Of a DNA stretch of 64,000 bases, positions 21,223 through 24,514 are shown piece by piece. Every line of letters begins with the position of its first letter. Position 1 is the first letter of the stretch. The notes beneath the pieces are model-generated. The model was not told the origin of the DNA and made no database searches. It saw only the letters and a list, made by a program, of their open reading frames with translations. The DNA lies in NCBI RefSeq assembly GCF_000941055.1, contig NZ_CP007202.1, forward strand, positions 1,732,001-1,796,000. The letters run 5' to 3'. This stretch comes from Siansivirga zeaxanthinifaciens CC-SAMT-1 (GTDB lineage: Bacteria > Bacteroidota > Bacteroidia > Flavobacteriales > Flavobacteriaceae). Both the position numbers and the translations under genes were made by a program.

Positions 21223-21699
21223 ATGAAGATGAAAACAGATATTGGTATTGAAGAAAAAAATTTAGATTTAAACATTAAACACTTAACTGTAGCATTGTCT
21301 AATGATATGATATTATATATTAAAACAAGAAAGTTTCACTGGAATGTTACCGGAGCAAGTTTTATGGAACTGCACGTGCTTTTCGAAAATCAATACAATG
21401 GTTTAGAAGAGGCCATCGATGAAATTGCCGAACGTATTAGTAAGCTGGGTGGAAAACCCGTGGGTACGATGCAAGCATTTTTAGATCATGCAACCTTAAA
21501 GGAAAGCGATTCGAATCCCGATTCTAACACAATGATTATCGAATTATTGAAAGATCACGAATCGGTATCGAAAGAATTAAGACAAATGATTACTTCCATA
21601 GAAGATGAAACCGACGATATGGGAACCGTAGACTTCTTAACAAGTTTATTGTTACAACATGAAACCGAAGCTTGGAAATTGAGAAAATATATAAAATAG
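21223..21699 (+). CDS. dps: Dps-family DNA-protecting ferritin
   Basis: A 158-residue ferritin-like protein that forms dodecamers, oxidises Fe2+ with peroxide and shields DNA under stress. The intersubunit ferroxidase site is visible: [18 protein letters not shown] supplies His, and [17 protein letters not shown] supplies Asp and Glu about 12-16 residues later, the classic H...D...E arrangement. The length is typical. It has its own promoter and is followed after 28 bases by the csbD gene, so the two may be co-transcribed. ATG at 21223; a second in-frame ATG two codons later is also possible. Confidence 0.93.
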
Positions 21700-21727
21700 A
21701 ATTATTAACATTTTAAAAAATATCACC

Positions 21728-21913
21728 ATGAATACGACAAAATTAAAAGGAAACTGGAACGAAACAAAAGGAAAATTAAAACAAAAATTTGGTAATTTAA
21801 CAGACGACGATTTAATGTTAGCCGAAGGAAAAGAGGATGAGCTTTTTGGAAAGTTACAGGAAAAATTAGGAAAAACTAAAGACGAAATTCATAAAATCAT
21901 TTCAGATTTATAG
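21728..21913 (+). CDS. CsbD-family stress protein
   Basis: A 61-residue hydrophilic CsbD-family protein. The family signature is clear: [45 protein letters not shown]. Members are among the most strongly stress-induced small proteins in bacteria, with unknown biochemical role. An IS256-family element has inserted so that its 8-bp target duplication covers the last two codons and the TAG stop (21906-21913). The protein is unchanged, but the gene is now cut off from its original downstream sequence, including a strong terminator at 23272-23311. Confidence 0.93.
21906..21913. repeat. Target-site duplication, left copy
   Basis: ATTTATAG, identical to 23249-23256 on the other side of the insertion sequence. 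Eight bases is a normal duplication length for the IS256 family. Confidence 0.9.
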
Positions 21914-21962
21914 GACACTATCCCGTAAAGTGTGTAAGTTAAAAATCGAGGGTTTAACTTTT

Positions 21963-23159
21963 TTAAAGTTGAACCCTTTTTTCAAATATAGTTAAAAACT
22001 GGTTTAAAATAATGCCCCAGTTCCTAATAGGCATCGACCATTTTTTGGTAGCCTCTCTAAGGGCTAAAAAAGTGGACTTCATAACAGCTTCATCTGTTGG
22101 GAATGAGAGCTTGTTTTTAGTGTATTTTCTGATTTTTCCATTAAGGTTTTCAATAAGGTTCGTAGTGTAAATGATTTTTCTAATTTCTAAAGGAAATTCA
22201 TAGAAAGCGGTAAGTTCTTCCCAGTTATCTCTCCAGCTTTTAATAGCGTAAGAGTACTTGTGTTCCCATTTCTGAGCAAAGTCTTCTAGGGCGGCTTTTG
22301 CTGCACTTTTGGTGGGTGCATCGTAGATGCTTTTCATGTCCTTTGTAAATTCTTTCTTGTCTTTCCAAACAACATACCGACAAGCATTACGAATCTGGTG
22401 TACCACGCAGATTTGGGTTTTAGATTCAGGAAAAACGTTTTTAATGGTGTCGGTAAAACCGTTAAGATTATCTGTGGCCGTGATAAGCAAATCCTGAACG
22501 CCTCTGGCTTTCATATCGGTTAGTACACTCATCCAAAAGGCTGCCGATTCATTCTTCCCCAACCAAAGCCCTAAGACTTCCTTTTTACCATCTCTACGCA
22601 GTCCTACGGCGATGTACATGGTTTTGTTAATGACTTTGGAGTTCTCCCGAACCTTAAATACGATGCCATCCATCCAAGTAATTAAATATACGGGCTCCAG
22701 AGGTCTGTTTTGCCAAGCAACAATATCATTGGTAACTTTATCTGTGATACGTGATATGGTAGATGTGGATACATCAAAATCGTAAACTTCTCGGATTTGC
22801 TCTTCAATATCAGAATTACTCATACCCTTGGCATAAAGGCTGATAATGACGTTTTCTATGCCATCAACCATGTTAGTGCGTTTAGGAACCAGCATAGGGT
22901 TAAAAGAAGCGTCCCGGTCTCTGGGAACTTTAATATTAGTCTCTCCTAAAGCTGTTTTTATCTTTTTAGACCCATAGCCGTTACGGGTATTGCTATTATC
23001 GGATTGCTGATGCTTCTCATAGTCTAAATGAGCATCAAGTTCCCCTTCTAGCATCTTTTCAATACCTCGCTTTTGAATGGATTTTAGAAAGGAGGTCAGT
23101 TCGTCTCCTGTTTTAAACTGTTTTAAAAAATCGTCGTTTAGAAAATCTTCTTTCTTCAT
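21963..23159 (-). CDS. IS256-family transposase
   Basis: A 398-residue DDE transposase of the mutator/IS256 type. The catalytic triad is visible in order: Asp in [13 protein letters not shown] (about residue 156), Asp in [14 protein letters not shown] (about 224) and Glu in [17 protein letters not shown] (about 336), with the C/D-x2-H motif in [14 protein letters not shown]. The N-terminal DNA-binding part includes [25 protein letters not shown] (shown as a family landmark in two pieces: [12 protein letters not shown] and NTRNGYG). The start at 23159 ([15 protein letters not shown]) fits the family; the frame runs on to 23186. No frameshift, so it is probably active. Confidence 0.95.
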
Positions 23160-23186
23160 AAGTGTGTAAATTTTAAAATTAAACAA

Positions 23187-23220
23187 AAAAATATCGAGGG
23201 TTGCAACCCTCGATATTTTT
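23187..23220. repeat. Perfect 34-base palindrome near the right end of the IS
   Basis: Half-site AAAAATATCGAGGGTTG followed by its exact reverse complement, with no loop. As RNA it forms a strong GC-centred stem ending in a T-run on either strand, so it can block read-through into the transposase gene from outside. Confidence 0.8.
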
Positions 23221-23248
23221 AACTTTACACACTTTGTGAGATACTACC

Positions 23249-23256
23249 ATTTATAG
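23249..23256. repeat. Target-site duplication, right copy
   Basis: ATTTATAG, matching 21906-21913. Confidence 0.9.
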
Positions 23257-23271
23257 AAAATATATTTTTAA

Positions 23272-23311
23272 TAAAAAACCTCTATGCAATTAAGCATAGA
23301 GGTTTTTTTAT
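23272..23311. terminator. Bidirectional terminator, formerly of csbD
   Basis: AAAACCTCTATGC / GCATAGAGGTTTT stem with A- and T-runs on both sides. It terminates the minus-strand aminotransferase gene. Before the IS inserted it was about 16 bases from the csbD stop, so it probably also ended that transcript. Confidence 0.8.
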
Positions 23312-23329
23312 TTTAAGAAAATAACTGTC

Positions 23330-24514
23330 TTAACTAACAGCTTCTTTTATTCTTTTAATGGCTTCAATAATTTGCTCTTGAGATGCCGCGTAAGATATAC
23401 GAATACAATCTGGATTTCCAAACGCACCACCATCAACAGTAGCAACTAAAGCTTCTTCTAATAAGAACATAGAAAAATCGGCTGCATCTTTAATAGTGTG
23501 TCCTTTTATCGTTTTTCCGAAGAAATGCGTTACGTTAGGAAATACGTAAAAAGCACCTTCCGGCGTATTGGTTTTAAAACCTTCTATATCGTTTAATAAA
23601 TCTAAAATTAAATCACGACGTACTTTAAATTCGTCAATCATGTATTGCACACGACTTGGCGATTCGTTAAGCGCTGTAATGGTAGCACGCTGTGCAATAC
23701 AGTTAGCACCACTTGTTATTTGACCTTGCATTTTGTTGCAAGCTCTAGCTATTTTTTCTGGAGCACCAATGTATCCAATACGCCATCCCGTCATTGCAAA
23801 TGCTTTAGAAACACCATTTACAGTAATTGTGCGATCGTACATATCTTCAAATTGCGCCATACTTGCATGACCTCCAACGTAGTTAATGTGTTCGTAAATT
23901 TCATCTGAAACTACATAAACATCTGGATATTTAACTAGTACATCAGCTAAGCCACGTAATTCTTCTTTGCTGTAAATAGAACCACTTGGGTTGCAAGGCG
24001 AGCTAAACCAAATCATTTTAGTTTTAGGCGTAATAGCAGCTTCTAACTGTGCAGGTGTCATTTTAAAATCGGTATCGATGGTTGTTTTAACTTCAACAGG
24101 GATACCATCATTTAATTTAATTAAATCGGCATAACTAACCCAGTAAGGACAAGGCATAATAACTTCGTCGCCTTTGTTAGTCATAACGGCAGCAATATTC
24201 GCTAACGATTGTTTTGCACCTGTAGAAACCACAATTTGTGCAGGTGTGTAAGTTAGGTTATTATCACGTTTAAATTTGGTGATAATAGCTTCTTTTAAAT
24301 CGCCATAACCATCTACAGGAGAGTAAGAGTTATAGTTTTCGTTTATAGCTTGTATAGCAGCCTCTTTAATAAAATCTGGTGTATTAAAGTCTGGCTCACC
24401 CAAACTTAAACCAATAATATCTTTTCCTTCTGTTCTTAATTCTCTTGCTTTTGCAGCCATGGCCAATGTCGCAGACGTAGCCATGTTTAAAATTCTATCG
24501 GATAGTAATTGCAT
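23330..24514 (-). CDS. PLP-dependent aspartate-type aminotransferase
   Basis: A class I (fold type I) aminotransferase of 394 residues, of the aspartate aminotransferase Ib subgroup common in Bacteroidota. Visible are SLGEPDFNTPDFI near the N-terminus, STGAKQSLANI, MIWFSSPCNPSGSIYS, VVSDEIYEHINY, and the PLP-lysine motif VNGVSKAFAMTGWRIGYIG (Lys about residue 235), followed by RISYAAS with the substrate-carboxylate Arg. Aspartate to oxaloacetate is the expected reaction; substrate range cannot be fixed from sequence. A single gene. Confidence 0.92.
   Translation of the reverse strand: MQLLSDRILNMATSATLAMAAKARELRTEGKDIIGLSLGEPDFNTPDFIKEAAIQAINENYNSYSPVDGYGDLKEAIITKFKRDNNLTYTPAQIVVSTGAKQSLANIAAVMTNKGDEVIMPCPYWVSYADLIKLNDGIPVEVKTTIDTDFKMTPAQLEAAITPKTKMIWFSSPCNPSGSIYSKEELRGLADVLVKYPDVYVVSDEIYEHINYVGGHASMAQFEDMYDRTITVNGVSKAFAMTGWRIGYIGAPEKIARACNKMQGQITSGANCIAQRATITALNESPSRVQYMIDEFKVRRDLILDLLNDIEGFKTNTPEGAFYVFPNVTHFFGKTIKGHTIKDAADFSMFLLEEALVATVDGGAFGNPDCIRISYAASQEQIIEAIKRIKEAVS

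Follow-up and report, generated by a model that had tools for sequence, protein, structure and literature searches.

The window analysed here is a stretch of 64,000 nucleotides from Siansivirga zeaxanthinifaciens CC-SAMT-1 (contig NZ_CP007202.1, positions 1,732,001 to 1,796,000). Within it, csbD, a small stress gene, and the convergently oriented aminotransferase gene are separated by an IS256-family element. The features of this region, numbered from the first base of the window, are as follows.

21223-21699, forward strand: Dps/ferritin-like gene upstream of csbD (Pfam Ferritin, E 5.3e-26; NCBIfam Dps models below cut-off)
21728-21913, forward strand: csbD, 61 aa, stop codon TAG at 21911-21913 (Pfam CsbD PF05532, E 2.3e-20)
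21906-21913: left copy of the 8-bp target duplication, ATTTATAG, which includes the csbD stop
21914-23248, reverse strand: 1335-bp IS256-family element, of which the genome has 15 near-identical copies
21914-21937: inverted repeat at the transposase-downstream end, beginning GACACTATCCCG
21948-21982, forward strand: terminator-like hairpin that points into the element from csbD (21948-21961 pairs with 21965-21978; T run at 21977-21982)
21963-23186, reverse strand: IS256 transposase, listed at 407 aa with a TTG start
23187-23220, reverse strand: near-palindromic terminator-like hairpin lying inside the right end and ahead of the transposase start, with its T run toward the transposase (terminator scan and fold)
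23225-23248: inverted repeat at the transposase-upstream end, its inward reading beginning GGTAGTATCTCAC
23249-23256: right copy of the target duplication, ATTTATAG
23273-23308: original bidirectional csbD terminator (terminator scan and fold), still serving the convergent aminotransferase gene
23330-24514, reverse strand: class I/II aminotransferase, the convergent neighbour (top NCBIfam match an aspartate transaminase model, below its cut-off)

The sequence-only reading had called the element an IS256, and this was borne out by the transposase, which matched the NCBIfam IS256 model NF033543 (E 6.5e-125; 416.6 bits, cut-off 150) and Pfam Transposase_mut (E 6.4e-108). Residues 7-405 aligned with 6xg8, a Mutator family transposase of solved structure (E 1.5e-114), which we take to be ISCth4, and two Asp residues and the Glu of a TN.IE motif aligned with 6xg8 at what are presumably the DDE catalytic triad positions. 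An ATG at 23157-23159 is a likelier start than the listed TTG. The ends of the element match at 18 of 24 terminal positions and are thus imperfect inverted repeats. Members of the IS256 family generate target duplications of 8-9 bp and transpose by a copy-out/paste-in route via a circle. When positions 21600-23500 were used to query Rfam, nothing matched at the gathering score, and 11 sub-threshold matches were taken as chance.

Read directly, csbD ends GAT TTA TAG; the left duplication closes with these three TAG bases, and the element follows the intact stop with no base in between. The duplication spanning the stop, the unaltered CsbD protein and the removal of the csbD terminator to the far side of the element, all claimed from sequence alone, were found as described; the range given there, 21906-23311, opens where the left duplication does and runs on through the old terminator. 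Before the insertion, that terminator started 16 nt past the csbD stop and was common to csbD and the aminotransferase gene. The sequence itself shows that the 3′-end of csbD received an IS256-family element by transposition, with an 8 bp duplication that finishes in the stop codon, and that the gene was thereby cut off from its terminator. In a comparison of the neighbourhood, 46 of 60 relatives searched had the aminotransferase at threshold, and csbD was absent from within approximately 1.5 kb of the aminotransferase in all 29 loci read besides that of the window, the genus being represented by one genome in the collection used.

The genome carries 15 full copies of the element, 14 of them identical and one with a single mismatch, and perfect 8 bp duplications flank 10 of the 15. 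Because of these copies and duplications, the csbD insertion is more than a chance match. Fifteen near-identical copies fit a recent burst, and with identical duplications at csbD and 14 of 15 copies identical, the earlier suggestion of a recent event holds; the csbD insertion is a real one, and probably a recent one. Taken alone, it is ordinary. A stop codon lies within 25 bp at 6 of 10 own-genome sites (0.7 expected), and a terminator stem within 10 bp at just one of 10; at csbD, the distance from the site to the terminator stem is 23 bp.

Related elements in Bacteroidota were located through a conserved motif at their ends. Sites were kept where the flanking 8-mers matched at seven or more of eight positions, and the empty site was rebuilt by rejoining the flanks. 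This reduced 140 transposase loci to 69 sites, after removal of 16 without recognisable ends, 15 with short flanks, 33 without a duplication and seven duplicates. Expected counts were taken from other positions in the same stretches, and ORFs were called with a simple length rule and no gene finder, which makes the gene boundaries crude. A stop codon was found within 25 bp of 32 of the 69 sites (4.1 expected) and within 10 bp of 18 (1.7 expected), while start codons showed no excess, with 2/69 within 25 bp (3.1 expected). A terminator-like stem lay within 10 bp at 23 sites (2.5 expected), and 38 sites were in convergent gaps (4.7 expected). Duplication and stop codon overlap in 11/69 sites, the stop supplying the last 3 bp of the duplication in three, including csbD, and in 19/69 the element either parts a gene from a terminator-like hairpin or cuts the hairpin itself.

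When both features were considered, 14 sites were near a stop and a terminator (0.6 expected), 18 near a stop with no detected terminator (3.5 expected) and 12 near a terminator only (2.9 expected); the remaining 25 had no stop within 25 bp and no terminator within 20 bp, where 62.0 were expected. Detected terminators do not by themselves account for the gene-end bias. The bias is weak or absent in two genomes, G338 (1/4 sites near a stop) and G219 (0/3). An earlier count with a stricter loop limit, which placed 22/56 sites within 20 bp of a terminator against 2.2 expected, is superseded by the 69 sites and a wider loop range. Four late loci (L298-L301) are excluded from the 69; two have duplications, one 21 bp from a stop and the other 5 bp from a terminator, and two do not. 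A phylum-wide IS256 search covered 118 genomes, 24 of them with a match, and yielded too few multi-copy groups outside Flavobacteriaceae to judge how widely the bias extends.

Such a distribution could arise by purifying selection alone, with elements inserting at random and surviving just at gene ends and in convergent gaps, where nothing breaks. Gene ends are indeed the least harmful places, and a large survey of IS neighbourhoods lists IS256 as one of ten families over-represented between convergent genes and explains the convergent-gap excess by effects on genes (PMC9208149). Multi-copy rve-type IS in single-contig Flavobacteriaceae genomes served as controls. Eight of 75 control loci fetched were dropped (six of group G120a and two single loci), leaving 67 insertions in 11 groups, of which 20 have no direct repeat of 2-9 bp, a repeat having been a requirement for the IS256 set. 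Over all 11 groups, 9/67 control insertions were near a terminator stem and 15/67 in convergent gaps, and the IS256 clade was higher in both (Fisher p 0.008 and 0.0001, respectively). Four groups were set aside after their sites had been seen, a choice that is weakly founded for G200a and G334a. The seven remaining groups had 5/41 insertions near stops, 8/41 near starts, 1/41 in convergent gaps, 0/41 at terminators and 20/41 inside ORFs. With 20/41 in ORFs and 8/41 near starts, insertions are not generally purged from genes or starts in those groups, which argues against selection as the sole cause, though the identical multi-copy controls are few and come from six genomes. The genome of the window itself supplied no usable multi-copy control: PF01609 had no match in it, and PF00665 matched at eight places with differing scores.

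Two further observations count against selection alone. Inside the same gap, sites are closer to terminator stems than they would be if placed uniformly: 17/49 have a stem no more than 10 bp away, where 9.2 would be expected (simulated p 0.00045). For sites that directly overlap a stem, the excess (9/49, 5.6 expected) was not significant (p 0.07). The bias is also already present in recent identical multi-copy elements, where 19/35 sites have a stop within 25 bp (2.3 expected, summed over seven genomes). We therefore regard selection alone as the strongest of the alternatives but an unlikely one, and an insertion preference as about twice as likely. A preference for insertion at 3′-ends is the best fit, to which selection may contribute.

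The second feature of the clade is a hairpin inside each end. The left hairpin has 14 pairs and a predicted stability of -16.6 kcal/mol (z -4.5), which none of 200 shuffles equalled, and it overlaps the last transposase codons. It is unlisted in the consensus terminator scan, and its assignment as a terminator is based on the fold and on conservation in relatives. The right hairpin, at 23187-23220 ahead of the transposase start, leaves little room for a promoter. Among 71 distinct related elements, the fold z was below -2 for the upstream-end hairpin in 68 and for the downstream-end hairpin in 63. In hand-picked sets, two-sided changes that keep pairing were seen at 9/14 predicted pairs of the upstream hairpin (17 sequences) and 7/11 of the downstream hairpin (20 sequences). 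T excess was inward in 42 elements and outward in nine for the upstream hairpin (71 scored), and inward in 50 and outward in 11 for the downstream hairpin (69 scored). On a plain reading, the paired end hairpins of this clade would be terminators that block outside transcription from entering the element.

Alternatively, the hairpins might be DNA features for transposition, such as cruciforms or transposase contacts, with little role in termination. The near-perfect palindrome of the upstream hairpin and the location of both hairpins just inside the inverted repeats are what this would lead one to expect. However, the T runs that follow the stems are biased inward, as those of terminators would be, and we consider a purely transpositional role improbable; the hairpins could serve transposition and termination together.

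If they are terminators, the fate of csbD transcripts changes. The sequence-only reading had them ending in the IS or running antisense into the transposase gene; this needs amending, as it overlooked the left-end hairpin at 21948-21982, which reads in the csbD direction. Since each end bears an inward-facing hairpin with a T run, we infer that the element supplies a substitute terminator, so that csbD transcripts would stop at 21977-21982 rather than 23303-23309. Most are predicted to end at the left hairpin, the most likely outcome, with an overlap of approximately 20 nt with the transposase 3′-end. The original terminator has been displaced by the element, and hairpins do not terminate every transcript, so some antisense run-through across the transposase gene might be expected; but such transcripts would first meet a stable hairpin with six T behind it, whose stem begins 34 nt past the stop (16 nt for the displaced terminator) and which is conserved in relatives. 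As the main fate of csbD transcripts, loss of termination is quite unlikely.

At the centre of the duplication, AA or TT fills the two middle positions in 42/69 sites (18 expected), and the central position is 96% A/T over the 69 sites. An A/T preference thus exists, yet it leaves the gene-end bias unexplained. Positions matched for local AT content give an expectation of 4.9/69 within 25 bp of a stop, and those matched for AT and the central dinucleotide give 5.0/69, against 32 observed; the largest count in 50,000 simulations was 15 under both matching schemes. Clade insertions at the 69 sites are enriched at terminators and stops beyond composition. That a transposase favouring A/T tracts found gene ends simply because they are AT-rich, despite the A/T-rich duplication centres, is the least probable explanation given the matched expectations and the absence of any simulation above 15.

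We think it likely that the element at csbD belongs to an IS256 clade that prefers gene 3′-ends, that its own terminator replaces the displaced one of csbD, and that its paired inward hairpins act as shields. The preferred targets of the lineage would be stop codons, the A/T tracts of intrinsic terminators and the gaps between convergent genes. Paired inward terminators would shield the transposase gene against outside transcription in both directions and would also render insertion at a gene end nearly harmless. As to how targets are found, our guess is that an A/T-rich centre is recognised together with some DNA or transcription feature of 3′-ends. A more specific version is tentative, and we give it somewhat less than an even chance: the transposase lineage would actively pick gene 3′-ends, its cue perhaps being transcription that terminates or converges, or else the shape of terminator DNA, and its paired inward terminators would have evolved to stand in for the displaced one.

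With its Mutator-type DDE transposase, 8 bp duplications and imperfect inverted repeats (roughly 25 bp in the family), the element resembles others of the IS256 family. The clade described here differs in its apparent fine-scale preference for gene 3′-ends and its conserved paired inward terminator-like hairpins. In the literature searched, which lay mainly outside subscription journals, no IS256 element was found described as preferring stop codons or terminators, or as carrying inward terminators in a pair. One IS insertion becomes an example of a candidate rule, in which an abundant IS family lands at gene ends with its own stop signals, and where an IS lies behind a gene, read-through or antisense transcription should not be assumed. 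Eukaryotic Mutator elements favour gene 5′-ends, and if active 3′-end choice is true, the IS256 lineage would be their bacterial mirror image. If insertion itself is biased, Mutator-type target choice and its possible link to termination are directly testable. The clade-level habit of gene-end landing with terminators at both ends is worth an experiment.

Group IIC introns target terminator hairpins and resemble the clade in using gene terminators as fairly neutral landing sites (PMC3898094). They are retroelements with ribozymes, and their machinery is unrelated to that of the IS256 clade: the sole long ORF of the element encodes the DDE transposase, where a group IIC intron has a ribozyme and a reverse transcriptase. 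The work cited for these introns is reportedly Robart et al. 2007. The 18 of 69 clade sites near a stop without a detected terminator are a further difference.

Two IS3-family control groups from Flavobacteriaceae, G352a and G240a, also insert at terminators, but their targeting is much stricter than that of the IS256 clade. G352a (L223-L234, genome G352) is a 1379 bp element present in 12 copies, all 12 lying 7-11 nt past a T run of at least five and 11 of them behind a clear terminator hairpin, on the same side. G240a (L245-L247, L249 and L250, genome G240) was found in the loop of a terminator hairpin in all five resolved copies, of six fetched, with insertions mostly around AAAAATGNCATTTTT.

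Five of the 15 copies in the genome of the window (L002, L007, L008, L009 and L014) are without matching duplications, which suggests rearrangement or deletion on one side. Two of these, L008 and L009, are approximately 217 kb apart in opposite orientation, and neither has a duplication of its own. However, AAAAAAGA is common to the right flank of L008 and the left flank of L009, which when rejoined give the A tract of a terminator, and this points to the two copies having recombined. The right flank of L009, a flank of L005 and the flanks of control groups G120a and G334a contain similar repeat-like sequences that by eye resemble integron attC arrays.
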